Positions 22,130-26,372 of a stretch of DNA of 64,000 nucleotides are shown piece by piece; positions within the stretch are counted from its first letter, which is position 1, and every line of letters begins with the position of its first letter. The position numbers and the translations under genes are program-made. This DNA comes from Clostridia bacterium (lineage in GTDB: Bacteria; Bacillota; Clostridia; Oscillospirales; Acutalibacteraceae), in the NCBI GenBank assembly GCA_017379935.1, contig JAFNVC010000020.1:32572-96571 (forward strand), read 5' to 3'. Below the pieces are notes generated by a model. It was not told the DNA's origin. It did not search any database and worked only from the letters and a program-made list of their open reading frames with translations.

Positions 22130-22160
22130 AAAACACGGACTGAAGCTCAGTCCGTGTTTT
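22130..22160. terminator. Bidirectional terminator between gpmI and the lysis cassette
   Basis: 14-bp stem AAAACACGGACTGA / TCAGTCCGTGTTTT with an AGC loop; T-rich on both exits. It marks the 3' end of the phage-derived operon. Confidence 0.88.
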
Positions 22161-22163
22161 CTT

Positions 22164-22412
22164 TTATCCTTGTTGTTTTATAATCGTATCCGCCTCCTGC
22201 GCTTTGTCAGTGAAGCTGTTATTCTTCCACCACGACCAGATTGCGGTTACTGCCGTAAAAATATATGTCGCATATTCTGTCCATTGCTCGAGCTCAATTT
22301 CAGTTTTTGTAATACCGAACATAACGAGAGCCTGATTGATAAGTGCAAGAACAAGCACCGCTGTTCTCACCCAGGTCTGCATTGATACACCTTTTAAATT
22401 CAGCTTTTTCAT
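22164..22412 (-). CDS. Phage holin, SPP1/A118-like
   Basis: An 82-residue small membrane protein with two hydrophobic segments (about residues 14-33 and 47-62) and the tail SWWKNNSFTDKAQEAD, typical of SPP1-type phage holins. Holins pool in the cytoplasmic membrane and open holes that let endolysin reach the wall. Start ATG 22412 overlaps the upstream stop as ATGA, with GAGAGGAG ten bases away. Last gene of the seven-gene cassette and immediately followed by its terminator. Confidence 0.85.
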   Translation of the reverse strand: MKKLNLKGVSMQTWVRTAVLVLALINQALVMFGITKTEIELEQWTEYATYIFTAVTAIWSWWKNNSFTDKAQEADTIIKQQG

Positions 22413-22630
22413 TTCAATATTTCTCCTCTCAATTCATCTATTCTGTGATGCGCGGACTTTGCCGAGCTTTCAACCTGAAACATTCTTTCGACGAGGTTAT
22501 TATGCTTTGATACCTTCTGCTCAAGCTGATCGATGCGGTATACCGTAAGGCGGTTGGCGGCGAGTATACCGCCGAGTGAGCCGACGAGCGTTCCCGCAAA
22601 GGCAATGATTGCCGTTAATATATCCGTCAA
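22409..22630 (-). CDS. Small membrane protein of the phage lysis module (XhlA-like)
   Basis: A 73-residue protein with one N-terminal membrane helix (about residues 5-24), followed by a coiled-coil-like stretch (DQLEQKVSKHNNLVERMFQ). This is the architecture of XhlA-type accessory lysis proteins, although XhlA usually has its helix at the C-terminus, so the family call is tentative. The start is TTG 22630, overlapping the upstream stop by four bases, and its end overlaps the holin start by four bases. Confidence 0.7.
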   Translation of the reverse strand: MTDILTAIIAFAGTLVGSLGGILAANRLTVYRIDQLEQKVSKHNNLVERMFQVESSAKSAHHRIDELRGEILK

Positions 22631-23319
22631 TTCTTCACCGCCTTACAGTAGTCAAGGCATACCCAGCCCGAGGGGATTTTGCCCCAGTTGCTCTTAACCT
22701 CCGACACCGTACAGACACAGCCCTTGACAAGTCCGTCCGCCCTGTTGCCCGAATTTCTCTGTTTTATCTGCTTTTGTGCATTGGGCGTAAGAAACGAAAA
22801 CTTTTTATAATCATAGTCCGTGGAGGGACCTCGTCTGACCCTTAACAGATTTGCCGTTACCGTATAGTTTCCTGTTTTATAGGTCTTCGGCTCTGTGTAG
22901 CTTTTTGCGAAAGCCTCCGGATCCTCATATTTGTCTGTTGAGAGGTCTTTTACACCAAGGTGCAGATGTACGCCCGTTGCTTTTCCGCTTTTTCCCGTAT
23001 AGCCGAGAAGTGTACCCTTTTTCACACTCTGTCCCGACTTTACCTTGATTCGGTCAAGATGATAGTGGAGCAGCTTTTTGTTGATTCTCGGATATTTAAC
23101 CCATACATACAAGGCTCCGTCAGAAGCCCTTCCGCAGCTGAGGACAGTTCCCTCTTCTATTGCATATTGTGCCAGCTTTTTGCCGTTAGTGCCGTAATCC
23201 GTACCGTAATGAAACGGATTTGTCGTGCCTGACGAGGTTTTGAGAACCGTCCGCTTGCCGTATGCTGAAGTTATATAATGGCTTTTGCCGTTAAAAATTA
23301 TATTTGTAATTTTGCTCAT
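22627..23319 (-). CDS. M23 metallopeptidase endolysin with SH3-like wall-binding domain
   Basis: A 230-residue peptidoglycan endopeptidase without a signal peptide, as expected for a holin-released endolysin. The M23 zinc/catalytic residues are H37 and D41 in FHYGTDYG, H85/H87 in LLHYHLDR, and H118/H120 in GVHLHLGV. From about residue 153 an SH3b-type domain follows (VTANLLRVRRGPSTDY). It should cut peptide cross-links in the cell wall. ATG 23319 overlaps the preceding small gene (ATGA) and has GGAGT upstream. Confidence 0.9.
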   Translation of the reverse strand: MSKITNIIFNGKSHYITSAYGKRTVLKTSSGTTNPFHYGTDYGTNGKKLAQYAIEEGTVLSCGRASDGALYVWVKYPRINKKLLHYHLDRIKVKSGQSVKKGTLLGYTGKSGKATGVHLHLGVKDLSTDKYEDPEAFAKSYTEPKTYKTGNYTVTANLLRVRRGPSTDYDYKKFSFLTPNAQKQIKQRNSGNRADGLVKGCVCTVSEVKSNWGKIPSGWVCLDYCKAVKN

Positions 23320-23474
23320 TTATTACTCCTTCCCCTTTCGTATTCCTTGATTATCCCTGCAATTTTCCTGAACAGCGTAAAATCATCCTCGCCACACTCT
23401 CTGCTTTTCTCAACCTGCTTGGACAGCCTTAACGCAAGTAAAAGTGACGAAAGCTCCATATCGATATCAATCAT
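23316..23474 (-). CDS. 52-residue hypothetical protein in the lysis cassette
   Basis: A short ORF starting at ATG 23474, eight bases inside the end of the M14-like gene, and ending at TGA 23316-23318 inside the endolysin start codon. The product begins MIDIDMELSSLLLALRLSKQ and continues with a charged stretch FTLFRKIAGIIKEYERGR, predicted helical and soluble. It is not recognised. It matters because without it there would be a 147-base hole in an otherwise fully overlapping operon, and the two overlaps imply it is translated. Confidence 0.65.
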   Translation of the reverse strand: MIDIDMELSSLLLALRLSKQVEKSRECGEDDFTLFRKIAGIIKEYERGRSNK

Positions 23475-25428
23475 AAAATCCGTTTTCACCCGATATCAGC
23501 GTCTCCTTCGGAAAAATCAGCTCCTGAGTCGGCACATCATTCTGTGAGGTGTAATCCTCTGCCGTACCCATCGGGCGGCTGATTTCGACCGATCTGCCGA
23601 TATTGCACGGGAAAGCATTGAGGGTAGCCGAGAATCCCGTCAGCTTTGCAGCGGAGGCTGTATCTGCACATACACCAATGCTGAAATTAAGCTTTTCGGG
23701 ATATCCCGAGGTTATAAGACCGTTGTTGTCACTGTAGTAAGCCTGCAGCACAGAATCAAAGGGAATAACGTGTGTGCCTGCCGAAAGAGGTATTTCAATG
23801 ACAAAATCTGTCATATCGGCACGCTCTGAATACGTCTGTTCGGGAGAGTAATCCTGCCAGAGCAAGGGATTGATACGTACGGTGCAGGGATTTACCGCAC
23901 GTATTATCGCATATCCGTTTACCGTCACATTGCACGGCGAGCGCATAACAAGCTGACAGGATGTTATCGGCGCTTTTTTGAAGGACTGAGACTGCGGTAT
24001 TGCAAATGTATCCGTGTCACCCGTACTGCGCCATGAAAAATATTTTGTAAAAGGCACCCTTGCACCGCGGAGTGTGAAGGTGCTGTTTTTTGCAATTGTG
24101 TAAATCATATTACCGATAAGCTCGGTGAATTTCGTTACACCTTCATTATTCTGTGAGCCTCCGTAGGATAACGACGGCCAGTTGACCGTGCAGGCATTGA
24201 TGCCGAATTGCTCTGCGGCATAGTTGATAAGAGTCGGATTAAGCGTCGGCGCAATTATCGAGGCTGAAAGAAGGTCATTTTCGTTTCTTTCCTCGTAGTT
24301 ATAGCGGTAGAGCGCATTAGTCAGAGCATCAAGGCAGTTATTCCTGAAGCGCGGATAAAAGAGCATCTTGCCCGAAAAAAGGTTGGAACGGTCGTTAAAA
24401 TGTATCGCGGCGCACAGTCTGTCTGTGCTGATGCTCTGAAGAAAATTCTGTATCGCCTGTGTCTCCTTCTGATCGGCAGCAGAATCACCCTTATATCTTT
24501 CCGTACAATCCGACCATCTGAAATCAAAGTTACGGTCGATTCTCACTCCATTTCTGTTGTGCGGTCCTGCAACCAGAAGTCCGAACGGATTTCCGACAGG
24601 AACAACTACAAACTTTACCCTCGAACGCAGATAACCGAGTGTTCTGTTTTCGTGCTTTCTTGAGCATAAATCCGCAAGGAACCATGACAGTGCTATCAGC
24701 GGCGAGCTTTCGGTGCCGTCGAGGCAAGCTGACACAAATACGGTTTTTTCGTAATTTGCGGGCTCAAAGGAATAGGCATATATTGGATAAAGCCCGCTCT
24801 CATCCGTACCGATACGTATCCGCGAAGCATAGTCGGGATAATCCTCAACCAATCGGTTCAGAATATAATCAAGATATTCGTTATATGACGAATTTTTACT
24901 GTATGACGGCAAATTATCCGCATCCGTAAAGGGTGCCGGTATATACCAGTCTGACGGCTCGCACGATGAGTCTGCACCCTCACCGAGCGTATCTGCAAGC
25001 TTATCAAAGCGGGTGTCAAGGCTTTTCTTATACTCTTCAAGCGAGCCCTCAAGCTCAGCCAGCGCGTTAAAAACAATCGACGCATCCTCTTCAAGCCAAT
25101 CCTCTACATTGCCGACACCCTCATCAACACGGTGTGCAACACAATTAGTAGCAATGACCGTATTTTCATCATTTATACCGTAAACTCCGATTCGTATATA
25201 CCCTTCCCTTGCCATACACACCGCAGGGATTTTGCAGGTATCTGCCTCCAGTCTGACTCTTATATAGTCATCATTGCCAAAGCCGAACACGGCGGTTTTA
25301 TCAAAGGAATCCCACTCGCTGTCAAAGCTGAAGGAACACGAATCATAGTTCACACAGCCCTGAGTTGAATAAGAATCCTTTACAACCTCTATACGATTAG
25401 CGGTGACCTTCAGGTTAAGCTTATTCAC
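23467..25428 (-). CDS. Phage baseplate-type N-terminal domain fused to a degenerate M14 carboxypeptidase-like domain
   Basis: A 653-residue protein starting at GTG 25428, overlapping the upstream stop as GTGA, with GGAGGTGA ahead. Residues 1-120 (SFSFDSEWDSFDKTAVFGFG; IRIGVYGINDE) look like the N-terminal domain of Firmicutes phage baseplate/receptor-binding proteins; a coiled linker follows (about 120-150). Residues 160-430 resemble M14 zinc carboxypeptidases: ACLDGTES, VRIDRNFDF, CAAIHFND. However, the first zinc ligand position is D237 not His, and the catalytic Glu position seems to be N416, while E240, R299 and H343 are kept. The last 180 residues look beta-rich. Possibly an attachment protein rather than an active peptidase. 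Confidence 0.7.
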   Translation of the reverse strand: MNKLNLKVTANRIEVVKDSYSTQGCVNYDSCSFSFDSEWDSFDKTAVFGFGNDDYIRVRLEADTCKIPAVCMAREGYIRIGVYGINDENTVIATNCVAHRVDEGVGNVEDWLEEDASIVFNALAELEGSLEEYKKSLDTRFDKLADTLGEGADSSCEPSDWYIPAPFTDADNLPSYSKNSSYNEYLDYILNRLVEDYPDYASRIRIGTDESGLYPIYAYSFEPANYEKTVFVSACLDGTESSPLIALSWFLADLCSRKHENRTLGYLRSRVKFVVVPVGNPFGLLVAGPHNRNGVRIDRNFDFRWSDCTERYKGDSAADQKETQAIQNFLQSISTDRLCAAIHFNDRSNLFSGKMLFYPRFRNNCLDALTNALYRYNYEERNENDLLSASIIAPTLNPTLINYAAEQFGINACTVNWPSLSYGGSQNNEGVTKFTELIGNMIYTIAKNSTFTLRGARVPFTKYFSWRSTGDTDTFAIPQSQSFKKAPITSCQLVMRSPCNVTVNGYAIIRAVNPCTVRINPLLWQDYSPEQTYSERADMTDFVIEIPLSAGTHVIPFDSVLQAYYSDNNGLITSGYPEKLNFSIGVCADTASAAKLTGFSATLNAFPCNIGRSVEISRPMGTAEDYTSQNDVPTQELIFPKETLISGENGFYD

Positions 25429-25664
25429 GCAGACATCACCTCCTCATCCCTTTTATAATAGTTTTTCAAGGCATAAGCAGTATCCAAAATATCTCTTTTC
25501 TGGTCATAAAAAATCGTGAGCTTGCGCTTGATTTCATAGGTTTTCAGATAATTATTTGAGTTGTATGCTTCGTTGAGAAGCCGTCTGTACTTTACAATAA
25601 GGCAATTGATATCCTCCGCCGCCTTAAAGTAATCTTCACTGAGTTGAGTTAAAGTTCTTTCCAT
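25425..25664 (-). CDS. 79-residue coiled-coil hypothetical protein
   Basis: Hydrophilic, mostly helical small protein (SEDYFKAAEDINCLIVKYRR; KLTIFYDQKRDILDTAY) without signal or membrane segment. ATG 25664 has AAGGAG nine bases upstream and lies 16 bases inside the end of the regulator gene; its own stop overlaps the next start. I do not recognise the family. Its position directly after the regulator and ahead of the structural and lysis genes suggests an adaptor, chaperone or regulatory role, which is a guess. Confidence 0.6.
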   Translation of the reverse strand: MERTLTQLSEDYFKAAEDINCLIVKYRRLLNEAYNSNNYLKTYEIKRKLTIFYDQKRDILDTAYALKNYYKRDEEVMSA

Positions 25665-26293
25665 TCACATTTTCTCCTTCCGTTCACAAATTCAAAATTG
25701 AAGCGAACGCTGAAAACTGCCGAGTATTTTTCGAGCAGTTCAAGTGTGGGTTCAGCCACTGAGCCTTCGATTTTTCCGAGCTGCTTTTCGGTAATACACA
25801 AGGCCCGTGCCGTCTGCTCAGGCGTTGCCGCACGGCTCAGACGTATACTTTTTAGCTGTTCCCCGATATTTTCCCCCTTGTTCCTTCGGGCGGAACAAAC
25901 GCCCATAATTTCCGCAAAAAAAAGCGGTGCGACCTGCACATCGGGCAAGTCGCGGTGATACCTTACTAGTGGTGTGAGTAATTCCGTAATCGTCTCGTTC
26001 GCGCGGGTAAGAGTGCGATATACATTCGCCTGAGACATCCCTCGCTCTCTCGCAATCTGTGCCGTACTTTTGCCGGAAAACCAATATTCCTGCACGAATA
26101 TTCTTTGGTTTTCACTCAAGTCGGTTTCGATAATGTCATCAACGAGCTTTGCTGTTCCGAGTTTTCTTATCCGTCCAACAAGGCTGTCAATGCTCTCAAG
26201 CGCTTCCGATTCATCAAAGCCGCCCAGACGCATACAGCGCAGGGCGGCCTTTGCCTCCTCGACAGAAATTACTTCGTCGGAAATTCCTTTCAT
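25649..26293 (-). CDS. Phage-type regulator with sigma-region-4-like and XRE-like DNA-binding domains
   Basis: A 214-residue protein starting at ATG 26293 after GGGAGGTAAAA. Residues 58-104 (LSENQRIFVQEYWFSGKSTA followed by QIARERGMSQANVYRTLTRA) form a sigma-70 region-4-like helix-turn-helix as found in ArpU/phage late activators. Residues 143-197 (IGEQLKSIRLSRAATPEQTA, ITEKQLGKIE) look like a Cro/CI-type helix-turn-helix. It is the first gene after the LexA-box promoter and overlaps the next gene by 16 bases. It probably controls this operon or another locus. The two-HTH arrangement is inferred from sequence patterns only. Confidence 0.7.
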   Translation of the reverse strand: MKGISDEVISVEEAKAALRCMRLGGFDESEALESIDSLVGRIRKLGTAKLVDDIIETDLSENQRIFVQEYWFSGKSTAQIARERGMSQANVYRTLTRANETITELLTPLVRYHRDLPDVQVAPLFFAEIMGVCSARRNKGENIGEQLKSIRLSRAATPEQTARALCITEKQLGKIEGSVAEPTLELLEKYSAVFSVRFNFEFVNGRRKCEWKEL

Positions 26294-26343
26294 TTTTACC
26301 TCCCTTTCTGAAAGTTTACAAGGCTCTGCACCAGCCACCTATA

Positions 26344-26372
26344 ATTGTACGAACATTTGTTCGGTTTGTCAA
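26344..26372 (-). promoter_or_regulatory. Promoter of the lysis cassette with embedded LexA box
   Basis: Minus-strand TTGACA (26372-26367), 17-base spacer, TACAAT (26349-26344). The spacer contains CGAACAAATGTTCG (26363-26350), a perfect palindrome at both arms and an exact fit to the Firmicutes LexA/DinR consensus CGAACRNRYGTTYG. A repressor bound there would cover the promoter, so induction by DNA damage is expected. Start codon of the regulator is 51 bases downstream of the -10. Confidence 0.8.

Follow-up and report, generated by a model that had tools for sequence, protein, structure and literature searches.

The 64,000-nucleotide stretch of DNA from a Clostridia bacterium analysed here (the window) carries on its minus strand a cassette of seven genes, whose predicted products are a dual helix-turn-helix (HTH) regulator, a coiled-coil protein, a protein with an M14 carboxypeptidase-like domain, a 52-aa protein, an M23 endolysin, an XhlA-like protein and a holin. 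We consider it likely, on comparative sequence evidence, that the cassette serves a dispersed, domesticated gene transfer agent (GTA) of the type described from Faecalibacterium (FpGTA) as its SOS-controlled locus for regulation, receptor binding and lysis. It probably does not stand alone as a lysis unit. The kind of system is already known from FpGTA; the new elements are a LexA box, a CI-like repressor, a candidate activator, a third locus and the breadth of occurrence. The comparison covered 18 genomes of the genus, including the window's own genome (G000), 200 genomes of the family and 394 of the order.

The seven genes (22164-26293) are all open and overlap at every junction, by 4 nt (holin/XhlA, XhlA/M23, M23/52-aa gene and M14/coil), 8 nt (52-aa gene, with its ATG at 23474, and M14) or 16 nt (coil/regulator), between one promoter and one terminator, as the initial annotation had described (Table 1). 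What that annotation overlooked is the exact palindrome CGAACAAATGTTCG between the -35 and -10 elements, which we take to fit the LexA box of Gram-positive bacteria. The promoter itself is the best of 14 sigma-70-like sites between 21 and 28 kb, a region in which shuffled sequences give 10.3 sites. Elsewhere in the same genome it has one match (29 bp, 93%), the promoter of what appears by eye to be a UmuC/DinB-like polymerase gene. In addition, AAACAAATGTTT or AAACATTTGTTT (one the complement of the other) lies upstream of lexA in all five lexA loci examined, that of the window's own genome included, and the LexA family was found in all 18 genus genomes.

The box is conserved in position. A strict form (RAACAnnTGTTY, sought within 250 bp upstream of the regulator gene) is present at 16 of 16 genus loci, G214 being left out of the count as its cassette is cut by a contig end, and at 9 of 13 loci from other genera, where the misses are L261, L262 (two relaxed boxes), L264 and L272. 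The background for this pattern is 344 of 20,000 random 270-bp windows of the collected loci. These observations strongly support the prediction that the cassette is under DNA-damage (SOS) control.

A second predicted layer of control is found in most relatives. In 12 of the 18 genus genomes a divergent gene for an XRE-S24 CI-like repressor adjoins the cassette (59-100% identity, query included). The gene was not found in G000, G203, G206, G207 or G214 (the genome with the truncated cassette), and G201 carries a 50% paralogue. All 12 aligned proteins keep the AG cleavage site together with the Ser and Lys positions, which are presumably the autocleavage residues. By eye, the repeat AATAGnTGTnCTATT recurs at the promoters of repressor-bearing loci and is degraded in the window and in L047 and L048, where the LexA box is intact.

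The cassette is a retained unit of the genus. A strong endolysin homologue (E<=1e-80) is present in 17 of 18 genomes; the exception, G201, is 61% complete and has neither a strong M23 match nor a portal match. A gene-order search in relatives with tblastn, as the initial annotation had proposed, recovered the order HTH-coil-M14-(small)-M23-XhlA-holin. Around the window's cassette and those of six relatives (L047-L052, compared by tblastn plus a reading of the gap before the regulator), tuf and a glycoside hydrolase-like gene adjoin one side and gpmI the other, except in L051, where the contig ends first. At L053-L057, L059 and L060 the cassette occupies other housekeeping sites; neighbour names (gpmI, tuf, rpsI, glmU and so on) were assigned by eye. 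The housekeeping flanks noted initially hold up to this extent, while the neighbour called a glycosidase had no Pfam match. Two loci were treated apart: L058 is cut at the cassette start, and G214 has a second M23 locus, L061, whose gene order is different and which was not counted as a cassette.

Ratios of non-synonymous to synonymous change (dN/dS) between the window's genome and G203, a pair whose synonymous divergence is high (up to 1.2), are 0.06-0.17 for six cassette genes, the 52-aa gene being excluded, and 0.03-0.09 for four neighbouring genes. Broken copies are rare, being confined to one apparent frameshift in the M14 gene (G211, left out of alignment A3) and one separate M23 fragment (G213), and the open reading frame (ORF) lists of eight cassette-bearing relatives (L053-L060), read by eye, contained no recognisable virion gene. 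The GC content of the cassette is 0.461, against 0.464 for the window. Viral contigs gave one partial match to the cassette M23 query and none to the M14 query, and the M14 part matched 35 of 50,697 phage records, at 24-26% identity among the 30 listed. Intact frames, genus-wide occurrence and low dN/dS led us to reject a decaying prophage, and the initial proposal of a kept, domesticated unit is borne out by the shared gene order and the dN/dS values.

The initial annotation had also stressed the absence of virion genes. Locally this is so: a reading by eye of the window's non-overlapping ORFs of at least 120 aa revealed no gene for an integrase, terminase, portal, capsid or tail tube. It is not so for the genome as a whole. 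A portal search gave matches in 16 of 18 genus genomes, only one of them over the curated cut-off, and the weak matches belong to an operon with the order TerS-TerL-portal-XkdF-like-major capsid protein (MCP)-connector-111 aa-277 aa. Profile matches identify TerS (PF03592, 5.9e-16), TerL (phrog_2, 3.3e-53), portal (phrog_30703, 2.2e-140) and MCP (phrog_3922, 1.7e-79); the 111-aa and 277-aa proteins have no clear profile match. The window's own genome carries the operon at G000:C25 (locus L222; TerL 3.2e-274), which raises the genus total to 17 of 18. The eight head genes lie on one strand and in order at 16 of 17 loci (with fused parts in the own copy), L284 being cut by a contig end; with the own locus set aside, the full set of eight is present at 15 of the remaining 16, the last being the one cut by the contig end. 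At five of the 17 loci (L108-L111 and L222) the neighbours were read by eye, as housekeeping genes, and dN/dS for five head genes is 0.05-0.16. A conserved chromosomal head/packaging operon free of integration and replication genes is found in 17 of the 18 genus genomes. Because such an operon is conserved both in the same genome and across the genus, release of virus-like GTA particles explains the cassette better than the programmed lysis, toxin release or vesicle release that had first been suggested.

In the window's genus the head operon ends after the 277-aa gene; at L224, L225 and L226, from other genera, it seems by eye to run on into baseplate J/gp25-type-like genes. A search with the tape-measure family PF10145, which did not extend to sheath and baseplate J families, found no match in the window's own genome and matches in 3 of the 18 from the genus; by this family there is no conserved tail cluster, which argues against a long tail of the PBSX/tailocin type. 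Beyond the genus, TerL (E<=1e-60) was detected in 123 of the 200 family genomes and in 90 of the 394 from the order; some of these matches may be ordinary prophages.

A structured leader precedes TerS (L222:11620-11714 and 16 other head loci). It consists of a terminator-like hairpin, a T-run, a GG[GAT]TGA core and a short hairpin. The core is present at 17 of 17 loci, and a hairpin with a stem of at least 5 follows it at 14 of 17, against 2.4 expected from mononucleotide shuffles, with a stem sequence that differs between genomes; the MAFFT alignment left its 3' arm out of register. A terminator-like stem before the core passes a loose test at 16 of 17 loci, for which shuffles give mean stems of 1.2-7.3. 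No Rfam match was obtained for the 4 of 17 leaders searched. By eye the leader may resemble boxA/nut-like elements; it is reminiscent of the antitermination reported for GafZ (PMC11150451) and is possibly an antitermination element.

A third locus in the genus shares the SOS box. At L103:8455-9876 (G000:C9), an SOS-boxed gene adjoining, by eye, a mannose-6-phosphate isomerase-like gene encodes a phrog_19695 N-terminal domain joined to BspA-type leucine-rich repeats (LRR). This gene is present in 11 of 18 genus genomes, and in all 11 an exact box lies 44-64 bp upstream. The same N-terminal family, which carries no functional annotation, is found in the third protein of the cassette.

The first gene of the cassette is a candidate link to the packaging genes. 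Its start is the ATG at 26293, preceded by the ribosome-binding site GGGAGG, and replaces the GTG start first assigned, to give a 214-aa protein. Pfam places HTH_31 over its cut-off (2.1e-6) and sigma70_r4-type matches below theirs (1.3e-4); an AlphaFold model (mean pLDDT 74) gave, as top Foldseek matches, XRE HTHs and a sigma domain 4, all weak (E > 0.01). Strong matches to the regulator (E<1e-18, a threshold chosen after a gap was seen in the results) occur in 17 of 200 family genomes, and 16 of these 17 also carry TerL, the exception being G140, which is 56% complete. L101 is present in regulator alignment A2 and was left out of A4. At the 13 loci of other genera a coil homologue follows the regulator in 7 (tblastn), and the genes behind the pair vary: an amidase-type endolysin at L260, GH25-like genes at L263 and L264, and another endolysin with a tail fibre at L266. 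Five of these loci (L267-L271) have an SOS-boxed regulator with no lysis gene recognised beside it. The head operon and an HTH, coil and amidase group lie ~6 kb apart in G015, and head operon and regulator are ~11 kb apart in G213 and ~26 kb apart in G177. We regard the dual-HTH regulator as a candidate activator of the head operon and a possible functional analogue of GafA/GafY.

For the third gene product a role in receptor binding or adhesion is more likely than one as a peptidase. Its M14 domain is recognised by Pfam (1.6e-12), and in an AlphaFold model (mean pLDDT 71) a beta domain at the N-terminus is followed by a helix, an M14-like domain with carboxypeptidases as Foldseek matches (best E 2.3e-11; target-normalised TM 0.47-0.64 among the 50 matches listed) and a beta-rich C-terminal part. 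In M14 enzymes the zinc ligands are supplied by HxxE and a downstream His. In the window protein D and N replace both His positions, which argues against an active M14 metallocarboxypeptidase. Among 13 full-length sequences HxxE is kept in L051, L053 and L059 and the downstream His in L053, L054 and L059, so that both are retained in two (L053 and L059). The gene evolves fast, with 75% identity between the window's genome and G203 where gpmI and tpiA show 97-99%, and it is cut down to its N-terminal domain in G213 and apparently also in G207. Loss of the zinc ligands, fast evolution and this reduction are the grounds for preferring a receptor-binding protein (RBP) or adhesin. The 'baseplate domain' of the initial annotation was not upheld: the first 109 aa have no Pfam match even at E<=10, BppU included, and match phrog_19695 instead.

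According to the main text of Borodovich et al. (2026; PMC12946183), FpGTA operon I encodes TerS, TerL, portal, scaffold and MCP, and operon II (~5 kb) encodes baseplate, tail fibre, RBP, holin and endolysin; the two lie ~125 kb apart in one strain, and proteins of both turned up in preparations whose ~40 nm particles hold ~9 kb of DNA. We liken the two systems by the architecture that this text describes, not by protein sequence. Both comprise a terminase-portal-scaffold-capsid operon and an RBP/holin/endolysin operon at separate chromosomal loci of Gram-positive gut anaerobes, and no long tail gene was found here. The present system differs in that a LexA-boxed dual-HTH regulator opens the second locus, a CI-like S24 repressor faces the cassette in most relatives, and a third, SOS-boxed LRR locus is present in the window's genus. 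The words LexA, repressor and regulator do not occur in the main text of PMC12946183, and its one mention of SOS concerns GTAs in general. Titles and abstract openings among the matches listed in a literature search, whose scope left most subscription papers and bioRxiv outside, held nothing further on the regulation of GTAs of Gram-positive gut bacteria.

Functional parallels exist in Alphaproteobacteria. Within the passages cited, the LexA/CI-like protein RogA represses the activators gafYZ of the Caulobacter agent CcGTA and lacks key cleavage residues (PMC9632790), GafZ is reported with antitermination (PMC11150451), and the agent RcGTA has the activator GafA (PMC9638019). Dedicated activators (a candidate one here), a main cluster with auxiliary loci and lysis of the producer are common to these agents and to the system proposed here, as would be, for Caulobacter, a LexA/CI-like repressor that acts on activator genes. 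The activators are set beside the dual-HTH regulator by function and not by homology and, in contrast to RogA, the S24 repressor keeps its AG, Ser and Lys residues. PBSX of Bacillus subtilis is one contiguous prophage with a contractile tail and XhlA/holin lysis genes. The lysis genes are alike, whereas the loci here are dispersed and no tape measure was found in the window's own genome. PBSX is described by Borodovich et al. as GTA-like and mitomycin-induced, packing ~13 kb of host DNA (PMC12946183). A review that mentions GTAs in clostridia (PMC10538166) concerns, in the part available, prophages and tailocins and left the interpretation unchanged.

Taken together, these features suggest the following mechanism. 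DNA damage would inactivate LexA and, in most relatives, also the divergent CI-like S24 repressor, and the cassette operon would then be transcribed. Its first product, the dual-HTH regulator, would turn on the head operon in trans. Small heads would take up host DNA and then RBP-like M14 and/or LRR proteins, and the holin, the XhlA-like protein and the M23 endolysin would lyse the producer and release the particles. A wider proposal, which we put forward tentatively and hold to be somewhat less likely than not, is that Oscillospirales-type gut bacteria share an ancient multi-locus GTA in which a double DNA-damage lock (LexA and an autocleaving CI-like repressor) holds a sigma-like dual-HTH master activator. 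Acting in trans, this activator would switch on the scattered loci for head, RBP and lysis, possibly through relief of termination at the structured head leader. The CI-like lock would have been lost in the window's subclade, leaving LexA alone, and RBP and lysis modules would have been swapped between genera while the regulator and SOS box were kept.

If the GTA interpretation is true, DNA-damaging drugs or inflammation could provoke lysis and the transfer of genes in capsids among the major gut fermenters, and a lysis cassette of such a genome that seems to be an orphan should be interpreted as a GTA locus. The locus offers a concrete control circuit (LexA box, CI-like repressor and conserved SOS-boxed dual-HTH regulator), and the packaging operon, given TerL in family and order genomes, shows signs of wide spread.

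Several observations weigh against this interpretation. The step from regulator to head operon is unproven because the head operon has no SOS box (0 of 17 loci within 260 bp of TerS) and the leader motif in its strict form was found in none of 24 other loci scanned (15 cassette, 4 LRR and 5 from other genera). The co-occurrence of regulator and TerL (Fisher p 0.003) uses a post hoc cut-off, is uncorrected for kinship and may be due to kinship alone; TerL is carried by 107 of the 183 family genomes that lack a strong regulator match, and at E<=1e-5 the regulator profile finds matches in 162 of 200 genomes, most of them short and of a generic HTH kind. SOS palindromes show no enrichment in the window's own genome (3, against 4 in a reversed control), so the evidence for SOS control lies in the position of the box and not in its count. 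In the own head operon (L222:8835-9830), ~1.1 kb is missing and portal codons ~10-108 run directly into the XkdF-like gene, with a microhomology of ~11 bp at the junction; this fusion is why the portal search missed this genome. Both genes are intact in relatives, and the heads of the window's own genome may be non-functional, or the assembly may be wrong; the genus genomes are draft assemblies, and the matching named records are metagenome-assembled genomes. TerL relatives lie on 429 IMG/VR stretches (up to 83% identity among the best 80), and portal relatives of 31-55% identity occur in 6 of 50,697 phage records, five of which are unannotated human faecal contigs; these viral-record relatives may come from ordinary phages or from GTA loci that were classed as viral. 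Finally, the docking role of the N-terminal domain of the RBP-like protein is a putative one, proposed by resemblance for a domain that has no Pfam match.

Some of these points would suit an independent autolysis module, domesticated and triggered by SOS, that has nothing to do with the head operon and serves the release of DNA, vesicles or protein or altruistic suicide. The cassette is complete for lysis by itself, no cis-element common to it and the head operon was found, and with the own portal fused and deleted lysis could persist without heads. We nevertheless judge such a module unlikely. Against it speak the retained RBP-like protein and regulator and the presence of TerL in 16 of the 17 family genomes with a strong regulator match; it would not predict SOS-boxed regulators with no recognised lysis gene, as at L267-L271, and the published two-operon FpGTA offers a precedent for the GTA reading.

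Colicin operons and holin-based toxin release combine a DNA-damage promoter with lysis genes. A weapon of this kind, with an M14 (and LRR) bacteriocin released by the lysis genes, would fit the SOS promoter and the fast-evolving third protein, and is in our view very unlikely: no colicin-type immunity gene was recognised at the cassette, which includes two small proteins of unassigned function; the candidate M14 toxin domain is degenerate in the window and keeps both zinc-ligand His positions in only two of 13 homologues; the third gene can be reduced to its N-terminal domain; and a tail-fibre protein follows regulator and coil at L266, in another genus. A minimal satellite-like element that provides co-resident prophages with RBP and lysis functions is highly improbable. 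It would account for RBP-like and lysis genes with no nearby head and for the frequent CI-like repressor, yet no integrase was recognised nearby and no helper was found by portal or tape-measure families in the own genome (where the portal search missed the fused portal). That a prophage was recently deleted and only its late-gene end survived, by chance, is largely refuted and has the least probability: the cassette genes do belong to phage families, and a genus prophage (L096) has XhlA-holin-M23 homologues by eye, in an order that differs from the cassette's, while genus-wide conservation at several unrelated housekeeping sites, low dN/dS, the conserved SOS promoter and the lack of recognised adjoining virion genes all speak against it.

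Table 1. Features of the GTA-like cassette (positions in the window; likely functions predicted)
Feature	Position	Strand	Remarks
Promoter TTGACA-17-TACAAT	26344..26372	-	11/12 consensus positions
LexA/SOS box CGAACAAATGTTCG	26350..26363	.	exact palindrome between -35 and -10
Dual-HTH regulator, 214 aa	25649..26293	-	sigma70_r4-like central HTH and C-terminal XRE HTH; candidate activator of GTA-like system
Coiled-coil protein, 79 aa	25425..25664	-	ORF; tblastn homologues
RBP-like protein	23467..25428	-	N-terminal beta domain (phrog_19695), helix, degenerate M14 carboxypeptidase-like domain, C-terminal beta-rich part
52-aa protein	23316..23474	-	ORF
M23 endolysin	22627..23319	-	Pfam M23 1.9e-13; C-terminal second domain
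XhlA-like small protein	22409..22630	-	phrog_1863 4.2e-18; Pfam XhlA weak, 0.15
SPP1-type holin	22164..22412	-	PF04688 3.9e-27
Bidirectional intrinsic terminator	22130..22160	.	symmetric hairpin, common to convergent gpmI

The assignment of the XhlA-like protein, also made initially, is upheld by its phrog match and only weakly by Pfam. Prophage-like regions of the genus at L096 (G212:C3) and L097 (G210:C112) seem by eye to split a spore coat-like gene of the CotJC/manganese-catalase type, parts of which lie at L096:9356 and L097:11444, a possible integration site. The separate M23 fragment of G213 (L099:9187-9852, on G213:C4) comprises the N-terminal part of an endolysin fused in frame to an unrelated kinase-like sequence and is a remnant of another lysis locus.

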